Shown one piece after another: positions 7,735 to 39,202 of a stretch of DNA of 41,030 nucleotides. Position 1 is the stretch's first letter. Every line of letters begins with the position of its first letter. This DNA comes from Akkermansia muciniphila (GTDB lineage Bacteria > Verrucomicrobiota > Verrucomicrobiia > Verrucomicrobiales > Akkermansiaceae). The notes under the pieces are model-generated. The model did no database searches, was not told the DNA's origin, and worked only from the letters and a program-made list of their open reading frames with translations. Location of the stretch: assembly GCA_945862285.1 (NCBI GenBank), contig CAMAYN010000010.1:1-41030 (forward strand), read 5' to 3'. The position numbers were made by a program, and so were the translations under genes.

Positions 7735-7960
7735 TCTTCAAGGCCAAAGGCCTTACACATATCAGCCTAGGGCAACGCCCTGGGAACGCGTCCCCCCCTA
7801 TTTCAAAGCCCTGAAGGGGCGCAACAACACGACACGACTGGCCCCCATTTGTGTCGCCCCTACAGGGCTCTGGATTCATGAAACGACAATACCCAGGGCA
7901 ACGCCGACAACGCCTTGGGCTGGTATGCGACGCACCGTTGGTGCTGAAGAATCAGGGAAT
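7735..7960. repeat. REP-like palindromic repeat cluster
   Basis: This fills most of the gene-free stretch 7516-8055. It holds GGCCAAAGGCC, CCTAGGGCAACGCCCTGGG, a long-arm hairpin (15-nt arms 7807-7821 and 7855-7869 with one mismatch) and a second unit (7892-7955) with CACCGTTGGTG. The same modules flank the RAYT-type transposase gene at 9321-9773 and recur at 24311-24366, so they are likely mobilised by that enzyme or a relative. No gene is seen in 7516-7734 or 7961-8055. Confidence 0.75.
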
Positions 7961-8055
7961 TTTTAAAGGCATGGTACTTTAGTCCTTACGTGCGTGAGAG
8001 AACTTGTGGACTCAATTCTGCGCTCCGTTTGCCCACCCGTTTCAATTGCACCCGC

Positions 8056-8763
8056 TTAAACCTCAGGAGTTGGTTTCACGCCACCCTTTTTGTTTCGCTT
8101 GGGATCTTGCAGTAAAGATTGGTCAAAGTAATCTTTGGCGCGCTCCGGCTCATCGAGATGGTGGCTGGCAATGGCGAGGATGTTTTTCCCAAGTTGCATG
8201 ACCAGGACACGACGCGCACTCGCCAGATTCGCGCGGATCTGCGCGAGATCGCCTTTCGCTTCTACCTGTCTAGCGCGCGCTGTGGCAAAACGGAGTTTGA
8301 GCGCCTGAAACTCGGCAAGCAACTCAGAGCCGAGCGCGGACTGATACTTATCGGCCGCGGTGATGAAACGATCAAGCACCCCGGGAAGCTGACCGAGACG
8401 GGCGCGGTTGGTATCTTTGAGGCCATTGGGAAAGAACTCGGCGTATTCGGCACTGCCTTTGGGGAATTTGTCGCGTACGCGCCCCTCGCGCTGGCGGACG
8501 GTGGTGCGGAAGAGTTGCAGCACCTCGTCTTTGGTGATGGTACCACTCATTTGAGCAGCGAGGTACGTTGTGCGGTCGGCGAGTTTTTCATCGAAGTCCC
8601 CAAACGCCGTCTTCGTAGCAGCCAGCAATCCATTCAGGTTAGCGGGCAACACAGGCAAAGCCCGGAGCTTGCCAATATGATCTTCCGCAAACTGGCGAAG
8701 CTCTTCCGCGCTAATCCGAGGATTGGCCAAAGGGTTTTTAAAAAAACGTGAAATATCCAACAT
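8056..8763 (-). CDS. Uncharacterised alpha-helical protein, paralogue A, downstream of a 21-nt tandem array
   Basis: A 235-residue, soluble, charged, predicted nearly all-helical protein with no signal peptide and no catalytic motif that I recognise. Marked stretches are ISAEELRQFAEDHIGKLRAL (about 17-36), TITKDEVLQLFRTTVRQREG, KFPKGSAEYAEFFPNGLKD, ARLGQLPGVLDRFITAADKY and EAKGDLAQIRANLASARRV. The tail NKKGGVKPTPEV looks disordered. It is about four-fifths identical by eye to the protein at 13244-13951, and the similarity continues about 50 bp upstream of the ATG, so the pair is a gene duplication. The 21-nt array at 8822-9220 lies 58 bp upstream and is oriented toward it. The protein at 38447-39202 has a similar size, helical plan and array neighbour. 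Function is unknown. Confidence 0.82.
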   Translation of the reverse strand: MLDISRFFKNPLANPRISAEELRQFAEDHIGKLRALPVLPANLNGLLAATKTAFGDFDEKLADRTTYLAAQMSGTITKDEVLQLFRTTVRQREGRVRDKFPKGSAEYAEFFPNGLKDTNRARLGQLPGVLDRFITAADKYQSALGSELLAEFQALKLRFATARARQVEAKGDLAQIRANLASARRVLVMQLGKNILAIASHHLDEPERAKDYFDQSLLQDPKRNKKGGVKPTPEV

Positions 8764-8821
8764 CGTGCGCGTGTGCTACCAAAAATAGAGCAGACAAAAC
8801 AAGCAGAAATGGTAATGAGGT

Positions 8822-9220
8822 AATCTTTTCATCTGAGCGTATTGCAGGTTTAGGTACTACGTCATGTCATACGACAATACGCATTGTAAGTTTTGACATT
8901 AGGATTTGTCATTGGACAATGAAATTATCAAGTTTTGATAGTATAGATCGTCTATTGACATTACATAATAACAGTTTATGAGATACGCTTTGTCTTTTGA
9001 CAATATAACTTGTAAATTCTGACAATAGACATTGTCAACTTACAAAGTCTTATGCAAGTTTTTACATTTGGCTTTGTCAACTTACAAAAGGCAATTCAAA
9101 TTTTACAAACAGCATTTATTAAACAACGAAGGTCATTTAAAATTTTCCCAATAGCATTTGTCAATCAACGGAAGGCAATCCGAGTTTTCCGAATGGCATA
9201 ACATTTTTGCCATTGCAATG
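8822..9220 (-). repeat. Array 1: degenerate tandem repeat with exact 21-nt period
   Basis: Eighteen consecutive 21-nt units tile 8822-9199 without indels, with a nineteenth, weaker unit to 9220. Read on the minus strand (toward gene 8056-8763), units share a core near TTGTCAAAA and end in ACAA, and many carry a dyad of the form TTGTCNNNNGACAA (for example TTGTCAAAAGACAA and TTGTCCAATGACAA). Some neighbouring units alternate as A/B pairs, giving a weak 42-nt period. Composition is much more AT-rich than the flanks. The reading frames contain stops, so it is not coding. It is unlike CRISPR: no long identical repeat and no separate spacer block. Confidence 0.85.
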
Positions 9221-9228
9221 GATAATCG

Positions 9229-9320
9229 TAGGGCCAAAGGCCCATTCCATATCAGCCTAGGCCAACGGCCTAGGAACAGAGCCCAAAAGAAAACCAAGGG
9301 CTGAAAGCTCGCCTCATCGG
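9229..9320. repeat. REP-like element, left of the transposase gene
   Basis: Holds GGGCCAAAGGCCC, CCTAGGCCAACGGCCTAGG and AGGGCTGAAAGCTCG in that order. The copy at 9979-10064 has the same modules in the same orientation, so the transposase gene lies between direct repeats about 750 bp apart. Confidence 0.8.
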
Positions 9321-9773
9321 TCAATCCCACACATAACGTTCATCATATTCAATCCCGTATTTGGTGAGAAACGCGCGGTATTCCTCCTGAAATGTCCGCG
9401 TCCGGTGATGCTCTTCTTGGCCGTCGATGTAATGACGCAACGCATCCAAATCCGACGGCCCGACGGAAAATGCCCCGTATCCACGTTGCCATGCAAAGGT
9501 CGCCAATGCGGGCGATTGATTTTTTAGCCATTTCGAGGATGAGGTTTTGAGTTCCTCCACCAATTTTGCCGTGGTCACCGTGCGAGCCAGACGGATGGCA
9601 AGATGCACATGATCGGCGACGCCGCCGACACGGGAGCATTCGCAATCCGCATTTCTCGCGACCGTGGCGAGGTAGGCGTGGAGTGCGGGTCGAACGGAAG
9701 CATCAAGAACGGGAGCGCGGTCTTTCGTGCTGAAAACGACGTGGACGAGGAGGAATGAAAGCGATTGTGGCAT
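9321..9773 (-). mobile_element. IS200/IS605-like Y1 transposase (RAYT-type)
   Basis: A 150-residue single-strand DNA transposase of the HUH superfamily. The HUH pair is in VADHVHLAIRL (His55-Val-His57), and the nucleophilic Tyr115 with its Gln partner is in RHYIDGQEEH (YxxxQ). Other family landmarks are HVVFSTKDRAPVL at the start and LVEELKTSSSKWLK in the middle. There is no tnpB gene. REP-like palindromes on both sides, plus more distant copies, suggest a REP-associated (RAYT) enzyme rather than a classic IS200, though this distinction is inference. The gene appears intact and probably active. Confidence 0.9.
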
Positions 9774-10238: not shown

Positions 10239-10985
10239 TTAAGAGGGCCGCTGAATCACCTCAAAATTCATAAGAAAATCCCCAATCTGGTGGAACAGTT
10301 CCGCAGAATTCTTCCCTGAAGCTTTACGAGCAAGTTCTTCGACGCCAAACCTAAAGGCAATGCCTCGACGGGGATTAACGATACATACGTCATCTATGAT
10401 GATCTCACGCGATTGGTAATTAAGCGCGCAATAGCTCAGAACCTGCCGTATATCGACACTTCGAAGATTTCTATCGACACACTTAACCTCATATAAAGTC
10501 GCGCTTTGAAATAAATCACCATAGCAAGAATCTAAAATGCCACATCCTTTGAATCTAGGTTGAATAGAGATATCTCCATCTTCCTCATTATCAAAAAAAT
10601 CTTCCAGCCGAAAGGCGATTTCAAACGCATCTTTCAAACTTTCAAGCGGCACCAACTTCTTCTTGGTGTCGCGCCCCCGAAGAACTCGGATTCTATCTAA
10701 TGCACTCTGACGAATTTTTTCGATCAAATCTGCGTCCTTGGCGATTGAAGTGACGGACTTCTTACTTTGACATGCCGCAGCGAAAATCCCAAATCCTGTG
10801 TCCGCCACTAAATCGTTGTTGGCGGTTTCCTCGGTTGCTTCAAGTGGTTTCACTACAAACCCGTTTGACGTGGGCATGGGAAATCCTCCGACGTTCATTT
10901 GAGCTACGAGTTGCGGAGTCAAGAACGGCAAACACTGATTCCAGAATCCTGAAAACTGCTCTGAAAATTCTTTTTCTGAAATCAT
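10239..10985 (-). CDS. PD-(D/E)XK-like nuclease, partner of the reverse transcriptase
   Basis: A 248-residue protein. The C-terminal half has a restriction-like nuclease pattern: Asp152/Asp157 in GILDSCYGDLFQ, then LYEVKCVD (Glu166-x-Lys168), followed by a helix with Gln181 in VDIRQVLSYCALNY. This is the usual D...ExK...Q order. The N-terminal ~110 residues are helical and unassigned. The start codon overlaps the RT stop by 4 nt (ATGA), implying coupled translation and linked function. The likely role is the DNA- or RNA-cutting effector of a defence cassette, inferred from context. I could not match it to a named family, so the nuclease call rests on the motif pattern. Confidence 0.65.
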   Translation of the reverse strand: MISEKEFSEQFSGFWNQCLPFLTPQLVAQMNVGGFPMPTSNGFVVKPLEATEETANNDLVADTGFGIFAAACQSKKSVTSIAKDADLIEKIRQSALDRIRVLRGRDTKKKLVPLESLKDAFEIAFRLEDFFDNEEDGDISIQPRFKGCGILDSCYGDLFQSATLYEVKCVDRNLRSVDIRQVLSYCALNYQSREIIIDDVCIVNPRRGIAFRFGVEELARKASGKNSAELFHQIGDFLMNFEVIQRPS

Positions 10986-12724
10986 AGTGGAACGTTTGGG
11001 TTAGTATTCTTTCGATTGCCGAACCAGTCGCGAACCAATCGTTCGAGAGGATCAAATGATTCCCTGTTGTGAGTTCTCCAGTGCTTCCCTTCGTCGGTGA
11101 GAATGTAGGATCCAACTATAAATGCCCTCCGCTCCCATTTAGAGAGCGCCGAGAAACTCTTTTTTAGGTCAGTCAATGAGTGATTATGCTGCCAACCTCC
11201 CCAAGCTATTATAATTTCCCGTCGGACAAGCGGACTAGTGCTCTTTCGAAAGATTTGGACAAAAAGTGTTTCGGTTTTTTGGGTGCACCGCTGCCGCAAC
11301 ACCTGAATTGCGTAAGCCAAATTTAGATCGACTTGGATAATGTGACTTTCTGCCTTCACAAGAGCAGTCAGTCCAGAATCAATCACACTTTGCGTCCCCT
11401 CGCCGAGTTCTGAATAGAGGCCTCGCAGCACTGTCATCAGACGCGGAAAGACAGGCGCTAATGTGTGCAGGTTCTCTATCTGAAGAAGTGATTCGATGAT
11501 GTCCTTTTGTGCTTCAGGCTCCAAAACACGGATTACTGAGATCGCCTGTTTCGTAACGATAGGATCGATCCGAGTTTTCTCCAACTCACGCCCGAGGATT
11601 CCCGCCACGTCCACTTTCGATACCTGCTCTTTTAAATTCTCATAGTCGTCAACACGAGTATCAGAATATGGATCAAAATGAACTGAAAGCTTAAGCAATT
11701 TGTCCTCCTCGGACAAATTCTCTTCGTCGATCTGCTCGGCTTTGACGAGCAATTTTGTTTCATCAAGGAATTCCTTCGATGTCAGGATTCGCGTTTTAGC
11801 CTTCTGAAGGGAGAGCCCCTCATTGAATAGTTTCTCCGAAAGAAAAATAAGACGTTGATAAGCCTCTTCCTTCGAAGAGCAGAAGATCCGGTAGTCATCG
11901 ACGAACCGACAAAAACGAATACCTTCGCCTCTCAAGAGCTTATCGACACTATTAAGGGAAAGCTCAGCAAGCAGTCTTGAGGCAGGGCCACCCACCGGCA
12001 AACCGTAGGACACAGTTCCAGAGAAGGTCTTCAACACATCCACAATCCGCTTGACGGTATCGTTTTTCGTATTGAGCCACTTCAATGCATTTTCAATCCG
12101 ATGATGATAGATTCTCGAATAGAAATCAGAAATATCGCATACAAGAACAAACGGGAAATCAGCCGCCGCCTCTTGAGATTTCTCCATAAATGCTCGCCAA
12201 TTCACGTTGGCGTCAAATATTCCACCGTCGCTCGTTGGTGTGATAAAGCGGTAAGAAAATACAGAATTTTCTGAGACTGGAATTCGGGCAGCCTCAATGG
12301 CCGGCCCCATGTCGATGACTAGGCTCAAATAATACGCATTCCACAGCGGATCAATTTGAGTGGCCCACCGGTATCCGGTATAGCCTACTGGAGCGAGAGT
12401 ATTGATATTCTCAGGAGCATTCGTTGCAAGCTGAGCGTCAAAATCTGCGTGAAGCCATTCAAGCACCCCATGAAGAAGTCCTGGCTGATCATGGAATATG
12501 TATCGTTCAAACGAATATGGAAAAATATCCGTGTCGCCGTAGGTTTCTATATTCTTGATCGCCGCTTTGATCGAAGGCGCGAGCTTCGATGGCGGAGCGC
12601 TTGGTGTCGCCCCCGCGTCTTTCTTCCCTGCACCTTTTTTAGCGGGTTGCTTCGCTGCGACCGCATGAGTTGCGGGCACTTTCTTTGCAGATTTTTTGGC
12701 GGTCTTTTTGGAAGTGTCACTCAT
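10982..12724 (-). CDS. Reverse transcriptase of the defence/abortive-infection (UG/Abi-like) type
   Basis: A 580-residue RNA-directed DNA polymerase. RT motifs: LVCDISDFYSRI (Asp197), SYGLPVGGPASRLLAEL (about 239-255) and CRFVDDYRIF (Asp276/Asp277, FVDD variant). The N-terminal core starts near residue 50 with NIETYGDTDIFPYSFE. No group II intron maturase (X/En) domain or retron-like VTG motif is seen. Residues ~330-580 form a long alpha-solenoid-like extension (QVDLNLAYAIQVLRQR, SPLVRREIIIAWGGW, LSKWERRAFIVGSYIL), typical of Abi/DRT-type RTs. Residues 1-46 are an unusual Lys/Ala-rich histone-H1-like tail (KKTAKKSAKK). The gene begins 22 bp after the hsdS relic and overlaps the nuclease gene. 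The RT call is certain; the antiphage role is inferred. Confidence 0.92.
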   Translation of the reverse strand: MSDTSKKTAKKSAKKVPATHAVAAKQPAKKGAGKKDAGATPSAPPSKLAPSIKAAIKNIETYGDTDIFPYSFERYIFHDQPGLLHGVLEWLHADFDAQLATNAPENINTLAPVGYTGYRWATQIDPLWNAYYLSLVIDMGPAIEAARIPVSENSVFSYRFITPTSDGGIFDANVNWRAFMEKSQEAAADFPFVLVCDISDFYSRIYHHRIENALKWLNTKNDTVKRIVDVLKTFSGTVSYGLPVGGPASRLLAELSLNSVDKLLRGEGIRFCRFVDDYRIFCSSKEEAYQRLIFLSEKLFNEGLSLQKAKTRILTSKEFLDETKLLVKAEQIDEENLSEEDKLLKLSVHFDPYSDTRVDDYENLKEQVSKVDVAGILGRELEKTRIDPIVTKQAISVIRVLEPEAQKDIIESLLQIENLHTLAPVFPRLMTVLRGLYSELGEGTQSVIDSGLTALVKAESHIIQVDLNLAYAIQVLRQRCTQKTETLFVQIFRKSTSPLVRREIIIAWGGWQHNHSLTDLKKSFSALSKWERRAFIVGSYILTDEGKHWRTHNRESFDPLERLVRDWFGNRKNTNPNVPL

Positions 12725-37085: not shown

Positions 37086-37841
37086 ATGCCTGAGCTTTTT
37101 GACAAACATGGAGGCTTTCGCAGGTTGCATTCCTTCACGCTGGCTACCATTGTACAGCTAGAAACCCTGCGCTTCTGCCGTCGTTTTTTGACTCACGACC
37201 ACCGTGAGTCCGACACCAAATTCTACGACCCTAAAGGCCGCCAATACGACCAGATGACCCAAGCCGCCCGCAGTGGTCGGCAAAACATCATCGAAGGCTC
37301 AGAGCGTTCCTCTACCTCCAAAGATACGGAAATGAAACTCACGGATGTGGGACGTGCCAGCCTCAGCGAATTGCGCGGCGACTACGAGATTTTCATCCTC
37401 GACCGCGGCGAGATCCCATGGTCGGCGCAATCTGCGGAAGCCCGTGCCGTGAACGCCATTTCTCTCGACGAAGCACCATTTTCCGATGACCTGGTTCACG
37501 AGTCCGCCAAACACGCGCTGATCCAACGCAAAAAATACGCCCGCTGGCTAGACACAAACGACCCCGTTATTTTTGCCAATGCCATGCTGATCATCATTGG
37601 CAGAGCGCTGAACATGCTAAAAAGCCAGATCGCCGCCCAAGGAAAAGCCTTCACCGAAGCAGGTGGTTTCAGCGAGCGTCTCCATACCCACCGCCTCGAA
37701 GCCCGCGAAGGCCAGCGCGCCATGGAACCCGCCCCGGTATGCCCTCAATGCGGCCAACCCATGCGCCGCAGAAAATCCGCCAAAGGCGAGTTCTGGGGCT
37801 GCACCACCTACCCCGACTGCAAAGGAACAAAACCGCTATGA
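37086..37841 (+). CDS. Four-helix-bundle suffix protein with C-terminal zinc finger
   Basis: A 251-residue protein. Residues ~1-185 are a helical bundle related to the 23S rRNA-intervening-sequence (S23/IVP) type: LHSFTLATIVQLETLRFCRR, QYDQMTQAARSGRQNIIEGS, LTDVGRASLSELRGDYEIFI and FANAMLIIIGRALNMLKSQI. The C-terminus has a topoisomerase-type C4 zinc finger, CPQCGQPMRRRKSAKGEFWG then CTTYPDCKGTKPL, suggesting nucleic acid binding. Function in this family is not established. It is flanked by matching 31-nt direct repeats and has no operon partner; the close spacing after hrpA (63 bp) is filled by the repeat. Confidence 0.85.
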   Translation: MPELFDKHGGFRRLHSFTLATIVQLETLRFCRRFLTHDHRESDTKFYDPKGRQYDQMTQAARSGRQNIIEGSERSSTSKDTEMKLTDVGRASLSELRGDYEIFILDRGEIPWSAQSAEARAVNAISLDEAPFSDDLVHESAKHALIQRKKYARWLDTNDPVIFANAMLIIIGRALNMLKSQIAAQGKAFTEAGGFSERLHTHRLEAREGQRAMEPAPVCPQCGQPMRRRKSAKGEFWGCTTYPDCKGTKPL

Positions 37842-37934: not shown

Positions 37935-37985
37935 ACCCCTCTGGTCAAAACATTCTCCTCCTACGGTAAAACCTCGGCTTTTTTT

Positions 37986-38321
37986 TTATGAGTTGGGGCA
38001 ATCACCCCCATCATCACCCCCAAAATTTTCATCGCCAGAGCAATCACCCCCATCGCACGACAGAAAATTTTCATCGTAAGAGCGATTTTTTTCATCGTAA
38101 AGACCACCACTTTCATCGCAAAAAGCACAATACTCATCACATACCCCAAAAAATTCATTGTTTTTGCCATCTACCCCATTGCACACACCATCAACTTCAT
38201 TGCAGAACCCAAAACTTTCATTGCAAAATACTCCGCCTTCATTGCAGATCGCAAAAATTTCATTGTTTTTAACCTAACTTTCATCGTCGAGGCCTTAACT
38301 TTCATTGCAAACCGCAATTTT
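37986..38321 (+). repeat. Array 2: degenerate tandem repeat with exact 21-nt period
   Basis: Sixteen consecutive 21-nt units tile this interval with no indel (37986, 38007, 38028 ... 38301). Most start with TTCATYG (variants CCCATYG and CTCATCA); the next ~14 nt vary strongly in sequence but not length. Positions 1-7 are thus repeat-like and 8-21 spacer-like. Some units pair into a 42-nt pattern (38007-38048 resembles 38049-38069 and the unit before it). Frames are partly open in both strands because 21 is a multiple of three, giving 7-residue periodic peptides, but no start/ribosome site supports coding. It fills most of the gene-free stretch 37842-38446. Confidence 0.88.
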
Positions 38322-38414
38322 CACCAAAAATCGCCACAAATCCCCGTGCTTCACGAAAATCATGTTACACTTTCGTCACACAACGAAAATGTGCTTGCCT
38401 CCCACTCCCAACTT

Positions 38415-38446: not shown

Positions 38447-39202
38447 ATGAACGACAACACCACTCCCGCCGTCCCCGCCACTGATGCCGTAGCTCCCGCC
38501 ACCACTGCGACAGAATCCACCGCCGCCCGTGGCTACTTCAACAAAGAACAGATCGAAGACATCGCCCTCGCTGAGTCCGTTCTTACCGCCGCTCAGGCCA
38601 ATACCGCCCCGCTGGCCGACCGCGACATCAATGCGGCCTTCCTCACCCGCTACAGCGAACTTGCCGCCGAGACCCGCCGCGCCACCGCCGTCACTACCGA
38701 GGCCGACGAATCCGAAGATGCAACGCAAGTACTTAGTGCCTCAGGCCGCGCACTCTACATCGCCCTCCAAGGCATCCAGAGTGCTGCCAAACAAAAACAC
38801 TGCCTGCTCGCCATCGATGGTGACCCCACTACGAACTTCCCCACCGACGGCTACCTGATGAACACCCGCATCAATCAAAACCGCGCCCTGCTCCTCCAAA
38901 GTGCCGAAACCCTGATCGCCCGCGCCACCGCCGACGATCTCCCCGGCTACAAAACCCCCGCTGCCCTCAAAGCCGTCTCCGATCTCCTAACAGCCTACCG
39001 CGAAGACAAATCCGCCCAACAACAAAGCAACGTCATTAAAGAACTCGCTCGCATCAACCGCGACGACCTCATTGACTTACTCAACAACCACCGCAGCGTC
39101 ATCCAGCACGCCGCCGATGCGATTTGGCATTGGTCAAACGCCACCACCCGCCCCATCCGCAAAACCTTCGCCCTCCCGCTCAATAGGCCGCTGAATTTGT
39201 GA
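38447..39202 (+). CDS. Uncharacterised alpha-helical protein downstream of 21-nt array 2
   Basis: A 251-residue protein with a Thr/Ala/Pro-rich, probably disordered first ~28 residues, then a mostly helical body: YFNKEQIEDIALAESVLTAA, INAAFLTRYSELAAETRRA, SGRALYIALQGIQSAAKQKH, QNRALLLQSAETLIARATA, LKAVSDLLTAYREDKSAQQQ and NRDDLIDLLNNHRSVIQHAA. It ends in IRKTFALPLNRPLNL. No enzyme motif, signal peptide or membrane helix. Size, helical plan and an upstream 21-nt array parallel the gene at 8056-8763, although sequence identity is too low to claim homology by eye. It begins 125 bp after the array. Function is unknown. Confidence 0.8.
   Translation: MNDNTTPAVPATDAVAPATTATESTAARGYFNKEQIEDIALAESVLTAAQANTAPLADRDINAAFLTRYSELAAETRRATAVTTEADESEDATQVLSASGRALYIALQGIQSAAKQKHCLLAIDGDPTTNFPTDGYLMNTRINQNRALLLQSAETLIARATADDLPGYKTPAALKAVSDLLTAYREDKSAQQQSNVIKELARINRDDLIDLLNNHRSVIQHAADAIWHWSNATTRPIRKTFALPLNRPLNL

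Follow-up and report, generated by a model that had tools for sequence, protein, structure and literature searches.

Genes and arrays in the window

The window, a stretch of 41,030 nt that constitutes contig C10 of a 3.65-Mb draft genome (hereafter the source genome), carries two loci at which a tandem array precedes a small protein gene. The first comprises the family A gene P0001 (235 aa, positions 8056–8763, minus strand), defined by its open reading frame, its relatives and an AF2 model that is all-helical, together with array 1 at 8830–9214 on the same strand. The second comprises the family B gene P0004 (251 aa, 38447–39202, plus strand), which was defined by its open reading frame, a Pfam/NCBIfam scan and its relatives and has no known domain, together with array 2 at 37985–38330, also on the plus strand. 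Both arrays were characterised by lag identity and consensus alignment. Array 1 consists of about nine units of 42 nt, each made of two 21-nt halves, with dyad axes half a unit apart; identity was 0.56 at lag 42 and 0.54 at lag 84, compared with a mean of 0.29 over lags 5–109 (z=14.1 against Markov surrogates). Array 2 repeats a 21-nt unit around TTTCATTGCA about 16 times, without a dyad signal, and showed identities of 0.52 at lag 21 and 0.54 at lag 42, compared with a mean of 0.28 (z=11.7 against Markov surrogates). These two arrays took the top two places in a scan of the whole window at periods of 15–31.

An initial annotation of this DNA had given both loci an exact 21-nt period, which is correct for array 2, while array 1 is a 42-nt array of two 21-nt halves and not a pure 21-nt repeat. 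Its array-to-ATG gaps of 58 and 125 bp correspond to about 66 and 116 bp with our re-drawn boundaries, and its view of one plan present at two loci is borne out in that both arrays are real, with the qualification that the plan is shared by two unrelated protein families. When aligned to their own consensus, array 1 had 125 substitutions and 2 indel bases, and array 2 had 119 substitutions and 2 indel bases (consensus identity 0.63). Both arrays look old, as nearly half of the unit positions vary and yet each contains only 2 indel bases.

The window holds a second family A gene, P0002 (13244–13951, minus strand), recognised from its open reading frame and its 78–79% identity to P0001. This third related gene had been described as lacking an array, and we found none upstream of it (z 0.7); L010 in genome G008, which is 94% identical to P0002 and likely its orthologue, is likewise without one. 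On contig C414 of G008 only 1.9 kb separates L010 and L021, the counterparts of the window family A genes. Between the two window genes, at 10239–12724 (minus strand), lies a DRT8-type defence pair, formed by a reverse transcriptase matching PADLOC Drt8 (7e-168) and then a protein matching RTasPDDEXK (1e-60). An IS200/Y1-type (RAYT-like) transposase at 9321–9773 (minus strand) adjoins array 1, REP-like palindromes were seen by eye at about 7740–7790 and 9230–9280, and similar transposases adjoin L004, L010 and L021. At the other locus, array 2 is directly preceded by the gene of a four-helix-bundle-suffix protein (TIGR04258), which also has a topoisomerase zinc ribbon and is encoded at 37086–37841 (plus strand), downstream of a gene for an HrpA helicase.

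Arrays accompany most genes of families A and B

A search of 192 relatives gave 29 family A matches, from 11 genomes, and 11 family B matches, from 4 genomes; the 24 relatives taken from named records were MAGs labelled Verrucomicrobiaceae, Verrucomicrobiales, Verrucomicrobia, Akkermansia or Prosthecobacter. A broader profile detected family A in 26 of 288 genomes of the order and 4 of 387 of the phylum. The source genome itself encodes three more distant family A paralogues (23–32% identity), all three with 42-nt arrays directly upstream, and two further family B matches (one of them a 51-aa piece), both with 21-nt arrays.

In the discovery set, 16 of the 22 N-complete family A genes had a clear array of period 41 or 42 (15 detected by TRF, array 1 by autocorrelation), two had a weak one (L012 and L014) and in four none was accepted (L009, L010, L018 and L017, the last with z 4.6); among fragments and partial matches an array was found in three of seven (L027, L030 and L036). 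The new family A loci from the broader search served as a held-out set, in which a TRF array of period 41 or 42 lay at most 400 bp upstream of 15 of the 20 N-complete genes, three showed 41 or 42 only as the top spectral period (L055, L058 and L079) and two had neither (L057 and L085). None of the eight N-truncated pieces had a TRF array of this period, with 41 or 42 being the top spectral period at L068 and L087. For family B, a TRF array of period 21 was found for 8 of the 11 matches, one was weak (L040) and two had none, namely L047 and the borderline match L041 (z 5.2, no clear period). The initial annotation had proposed scanning upstream of all homologues for period-21 repeats, and had named rarity of the arrays beside homologues as what would refute the unit; these counts pass the former and do not meet the latter.

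Within 900 bp upstream of family A and B genes, the TRF arrays that reached 100 bp had only periods of 41/42 or 21, their halves (20/21) or small multiples, and shorter repeats of other periods do occur there (for example of 7 nt at L017 and of 17 nt at L016). In the 900 bp downstream, the discovery set mostly showed nothing; z exceeded 5 at L025, L031 and L017, where TRF reported repeats of 3 nt, 39 nt and 21/27 nt, respectively, the last inside the L017 open frame. L021 (G008:C414) has, besides the array of its family A gene, a second and different 42-nt array of 3.6 copies at 786–936, about 565 bp upstream of that gene, and two Rfam Acido-Lenti-1 matches lie downstream of the family A gene at L004 (2425–2470 and 2604–2649). 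L064 was left out of the held-out set, being the same place as L027, and G226:C26 and G223:C78 (incomplete upstream DNA) and several N-truncated matches including L086 were left out of the array counts. These counts are lower bounds, since TRF misses degenerate arrays; all arrays come from assemblies, where tandem repeats may be collapsed, and the order genomes are related, so that the loci are not all independent.

Protein properties and gene neighbours

Neither P0001 nor P0004 gave a match above the Pfam or NCBIfam cut-offs. This agrees with the earlier description of both as helical proteins without known domains, of which the helical part was confirmed for P0001 only: its AF2 model is an extended all-helical bundle (pLDDT 77, pTM 0.53), with no Foldseek match at E <= 0.001 in the PDB or a viral library. 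A PDB sequence search gave a best E of 0.076 for family A and nothing for family B, and no relative was found on viral contigs. Homology between the two families was rejected (hhalign probability 3%). Most proteins of both families are acidic (pI about 5), with a few at 9–10; neither charge nor structure directly supports DNA binding. Across the 14 sequences of an order-level family A subfamily, the C-terminal FPRQPEKLxLYMQQHLLE hardly varies and the helix around RKARKQAKDNFR is basic; L125, which has an internal stop, was left out of alignment A6.

The neighbours recurring in at least 4 of 48 loci (BLASTP, shadow frames aside) were MnmG (GidA) at eight, small groups at four to five of those loci and RAYT at four, and no recurring ATPase partner was recognised among the 48, where single-locus neighbours were not all annotated. 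At L109–L113 and L118, MnmG is encoded upstream of the family A unit, an arrangement belonging to the 8 of 48 loci. The mnmG gene is found near the replication origin in many bacteria.

Rigid spacing and dyad symmetry of the arrays

In 36 arrays, 32 of them beside family A genes or pieces and 4 solitary, we counted 1017 mismatches and 17 indel bases (8 inserted, 9 deleted) over 8909 bases. Most boundaries came from TRF, which is biased towards few-indel arrays; the two degenerate window arrays show the same rigidity. Unit sequences were mostly unrelated between loci, and the choice between 41 and 42 tracked protein subfamily as judged by eye, without a tree. Reading frame is not the reason for the rigid length, because 41 is not a multiple of three. 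The possibility of coding arrays was ruled out, since a period of 41 does not keep the frame and arrays of 42 nt leave several frames open; a single 21-nt array that truly is coding (L107 8238–8379) was set aside, and 10 of 26 other arrays of 21–23 or 41–43 nt lie inside open frames of 131–197 aa that we judged to be made by the array. Phased A-tract curvature as a general cause was judged unlikely by eye, as the GC-rich arrays L013, L016 and L034 have no such tracts. Since spacings of 21 and 41–42 bp are integral numbers of helical turns, and recur in families without detectable homology, they point to DNA.

The best dyad axis of family A units exceeded that of column-shuffled units (Fisher p 5e-14, 36 arrays), and the second axis tended to lie half a unit away (20.5–21 bp), with 12 of the 36 falling in the top tenth (KS p 2e-4). 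Both p values are too small because some arrays are related (e.g. L020, L021 and L036), and single arrays failed the test (e.g. L033, L048 and L054, p 0.47–0.64). No dyad was detected in family B units. In the related arrays L028 and L089 the linkers were kept and both arms of both palindromes were exchanged, which, judging from these two arrays alone, is how a dimeric site would change its specificity.

Inverted repeats could also form RNA hairpins, and the array could be transcribed, its RNA repeats binding, guiding or neutralising the protein as in type III toxin-antitoxin systems (ToxIN) or TIGR-Tas. The repeat units of ToxI have lengths near those of the arrays described here. A tandem array close upstream of a small gene and on its sense side would suit this explanation, as would unit lengths near those of TIGR repeats, as given in the accessible part of the source (PMC12045711). 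At 189 paired columns of 17 arrays, for which second axes were partly hand-picked, we counted 40 departures to G-U, 54 to A-C and 79 other mismatches, with 13 double changes against 7.3 expected, a count of sequence changes that is no test of expression. Because G-U and A-C departures are similar, without an excess of the former, RNA hairpins are unsupported. The proteins showed no Nop domain and no defence-family match, no Rfam family was found on the arrays of the eight sources searched, and homogeneous arrays conserve whole units (consensus identity 0.83–0.96 in many), without variable spacers, a point on which degenerate arrays, array 2 (0.63) among them, are uninformative. Arrays that lie downstream of genes or stand alone, described below, also speak against an RNA role, which we consider unlikely. 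The initial annotation had left open whether the protein binds the array as DNA or as RNA; binding is still an inference, and the G-U and A-C counts favour DNA.

DUF6261 genes are linked to arrays of the same period

The gene P0005, beside L175 in the source genome, encodes a DUF6261 protein (PF19775; 131 bits against a Pfam cut-off of 27), with its array 80 bp downstream. DUF6261 proteins are of the same length class as those of families A and B and have the same 41/42-bp arrays, with a Pro-rich tail in the case of P0005, but show no profile similarity to them; homology was rejected (hhalign 0.7% with family A and 0.2% with family B), and PF19775 was not among the Pfam matches of either family. 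At L243 and L245 the DUF6261 proteins have the N-terminus FDIRDFSEDHLFAFG, which is reminiscent of FDDPNISMAELVAFT in family A and might link the families, although profile comparison gave no confirmation.

DUF6261 occurred in 5 of 189 order genomes, with 18 of its 24 matches in a single genome. An array of period 41/42 (in one case only as 84) adjoined the gene at 12 of 20 loci and was absent at the other 8. Five of these arrays lay downstream (gaps of 22–90 bp) and seven upstream (329–414 bp before the Pfam match), and extra arrays of other periods were present beside the DUF6261 genes at L234 and L239 (73–76 and 39).

An array might be an ordinary autoregulatory operator or a curved-DNA promoter element. 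The arrays of families A and B usually end some 70–400 bp before the gene start, as would be expected of such an element, and five promoter-like matches, compared with 1.5 expected, were found in 8000–9320, all at 8883–9226, inside array 1 or at its edge, though only one is on the strand of the gene at 8056–8763. Many arrays, however, run to 5 to 16 units over 200–400 bp, beyond what an operator needs, and solitary arrays stand by unrelated genes. Because the arrays can be downstream, as at the five DUF6261 loci, they are not only promoters or leaders, which weakens the option of autoregulation raised at the outset. We regard an operator or promoter element as quite improbable.

A tblastn search of plasmid records revealed two DUF6261 genes in Parabacteroides distasonis (Bacteroidota), in two records of one strain that are labelled as plasmids, one of which carries era and der. 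L254 has a plain 42-nt array upstream (identity 0.53 at lag 42), and L253 has a degenerate one missed by TRF, in which identity is highest at lags 42 and 41 (0.45 and 0.43). Five dyad axes with at least 7 of 9 pairs were present at L253, compared with 0.95 in shuffles, whose maximum was also five, and a dyad-pitch periodogram of the same stretch gave no signal (p 0.69). For array 1 this periodogram gave p 0.15; the method also signalled in a downstream control at L254, and so was not relied upon. The evidence from Bacteroidota thus amounts to two genes of one strain, one with a clear array and one with a weak array.

Two further array-linked candidates were found. P0006 (L186 6729–7556) has an array of period 43 and no Pfam match, and a 358-aa protein at L230 16341–17417 has an array of period 41 and only a weak DivIVA match; the L230 frame contains VARFGQAFFGDGSRFS, resembling the MARWNFAFFDSGVRFD extension of order-level family A proteins. 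PADLOC gave no match for P0001, P0004, P0005, P0006 or the L230 protein.

Solitary arrays in the scanned part of the source genome

We scanned 1,586,228 bases of the source genome with TRF (80 stretches plus the window, about 43%). This yielded 31 arrays of at least 100 bp with periods of 10–130, of which 27 had periods of 21–23 or 41–43 and only four had others (24, 30, 57 and 69). Five of the 27 were at family genes, namely L102 (family B), L141 (family A), L175 (DUF6261) and two at L186. With the coding array at L107 excluded, the next open reading frame was no recognised family gene for 21 of 26, so that in the scanned part solitary arrays outnumber gene-linked ones. The annotation had tied such arrays to a protein gene, which is supported beside most homologues, although in this genome such arrays also occur alone. 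One flank of L108 and L174 was not visible, as they lie at a stretch end, and the window arrays are too degenerate for the TRF list. Intergenic arrays of period 22 and 23, without an adjoining family gene, lie at L108 19624–19902 and L091 17615–17809, respectively. Compared with the 27 arrays in 1.59 Mb of the source genome (26 without the coding one), none was found in 400 kb of G005, a genome of the same genus without a family A or B match (DUF6261 was not checked there), and G201, a genome with family A genes, gave two in 400 kb.

Several solitary arrays resembled gene-linked arrays of the same genome: L136 and L034 were 95.6% identical over 137 bp, L160 and L032 74.6% over 205 bp, and L089 and L028 75.6% over 315 bp, with flanks unshared except for 41 bp beside L136. 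Solitary arrays also matched each other (L161/L180 and L184/L187). As far as such matches can tell, they would fit sites in trans of one protein, or copies spread in another way.

The latter would be expected if the arrays were primarily mobile or self-expanding elements and the proteins maintained, copied or spread them, or hitch-hiked on them, without a host function. The patchy distribution and multi-copy genomes, the recurrence of unit types among solitary arrays that lie in unrelated surroundings, and the RAYT-like transposase at 4 of 48 loci are compatible with such elements. Many substitutions with few indels nevertheless argue for selection on spacing after divergence, no catalytic domain was found in the proteins, and 8 of 48 loci occupy a fixed place near mnmG. 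This possibility also seems to us rather unlikely.

A phased DNA lattice as the proposed explanation

We propose that the small protein gene and its cis-linked array form one unit, in which the array would offer that protein a lattice of sites to bind. These would be spaced by whole helical turns (two for 21 bp, about four for 41–42 bp), so that bound dimers or oligomers could align on one face of the DNA and assemble into a filament, a cluster or a bridged complex. Of the families, A and C (DUF6261) are predicted to read 41/42-bp units, which in family A would contain dyad-symmetric sites about 20.5–21 bp apart, and family B to read 21-bp direct repeats. Locus-specific site sequences could let several such proteins work on one chromosome without cross-talk, solitary arrays may be further sites in trans, and the likely output would be local DNA condensation or maintenance of a chromosome or element, comparable to that of SopB on sopC.

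The linkage, the rigid period, the dyads, the array-specific sequences and the solitary relatives are direct observations. Binding, oligomerisation and output are all inferred, and we give a helically phased DNA lattice bound by its linked protein about an even chance of being correct. Counted against it are the acidity of most family A and B proteins, the lack of a fold match for the one model, the absence of dyads in family B, the absence of arrays at P0002, its orthologue and others, the solitary majority, the 8 of 20 DUF6261 loci without a 41/42 array, the other periods at L234 and L239, the missing ATPase, the arrays failing the dyad test, the null periodograms and the preference of TRF for few-indel arrays. 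A wider reading is tentative and in our estimate doubtful: a class of chromosomal lattice proteins spanning Verrucomicrobiota and Bacteroidota and comprising several sequence families, DUF6261 among them, each with a private phased cis array and dispersed trans arrays, which would form many mutually exclusive centromere-like clusters per chromosome with fast-changing specificity.

Comparison with known systems

The F-plasmid sopC array adjoins the gene of its binding protein. In the part of the source available, this centromere (parS-F) is described as twelve repeats of 43 bp, with ten inverted repeats of 16 bp inside them to which ParB-F (SopB) binds (PMC6238139). By analogy, sopC/SopB would be the nearest analogue of the family A arrays, as both have tandem units of about four turns, with inverted-repeat sites at whole-turn spacing beside the gene. 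It differs in that family B arrays have no dyads, that no ParB or other Pfam domain was found over the cut-off (DUF6261 apart) and the P0001 model has no fold match, and that many paralogues with different arrays, mostly of 41/42 and 21 bp, occur per genome here. Because there is no ParB domain and no recurring ParA, the units are not members of ParABS. Plasmid iterons are direct repeats of about 19–22 bp, or two helical turns, beside the gene of their binding protein, and in this resemble the family B arrays, but no Rep initiator domain was found in the Pfam scan.

TIGR-Tas systems use 36-nt guide RNAs. Their arrays, as far as the accessible part of their description goes, have two alternating repeats and 9-nt variable spacers (PMC12045711); to that extent the likeness is an array with alternating repeats by a small protein, with locus-specific repeat sequences. 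In contrast, the units here are rigid at 41/42 and homogeneous arrays have no variable spacers, and Nop was missing both from the matches of P0001 and P0004 at E<=1 and from the families that were listed for 21 family A members at E<=0.1. Type III toxin-antitoxin systems (ToxIN/CptIN), within the sources as available, share tandem repeats adjoining a small gene, and differ in that no known endoribonuclease toxin family was matched (Pfam, NCBIfam and PADLOC), the departures from pairing give no sign of RNA structure and some arrays here are downstream or alone. On the features tested, the units are neither TIGR-Tas nor type III toxin-antitoxin systems. In a literature search, with subscription journals mostly outside its scope, we found no earlier description of such gene-array units among the papers listed; for Methylacidiphilum, 54 short tandem repeats were counted, with no period or gene link given in the part of that source available (PMC4210602).

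Taken together, several proteins without detectable kinship, each accompanied by phased arrays, suggest a so far undescribed unit of protein and DNA lattice. If this is true, DUF6261 of Pfam and at least two unnamed families would gain a partner and a functional lead, and a kind of protein-DNA lattice with evolvable specificity would stand beside ParB, iterons and CRISPR-like arrays. The rule itself, a period of 21, 41 or 42 with free sequence, would offer a simple search for more such families in any genome, and would predict for each protein the sequence to be recognised.
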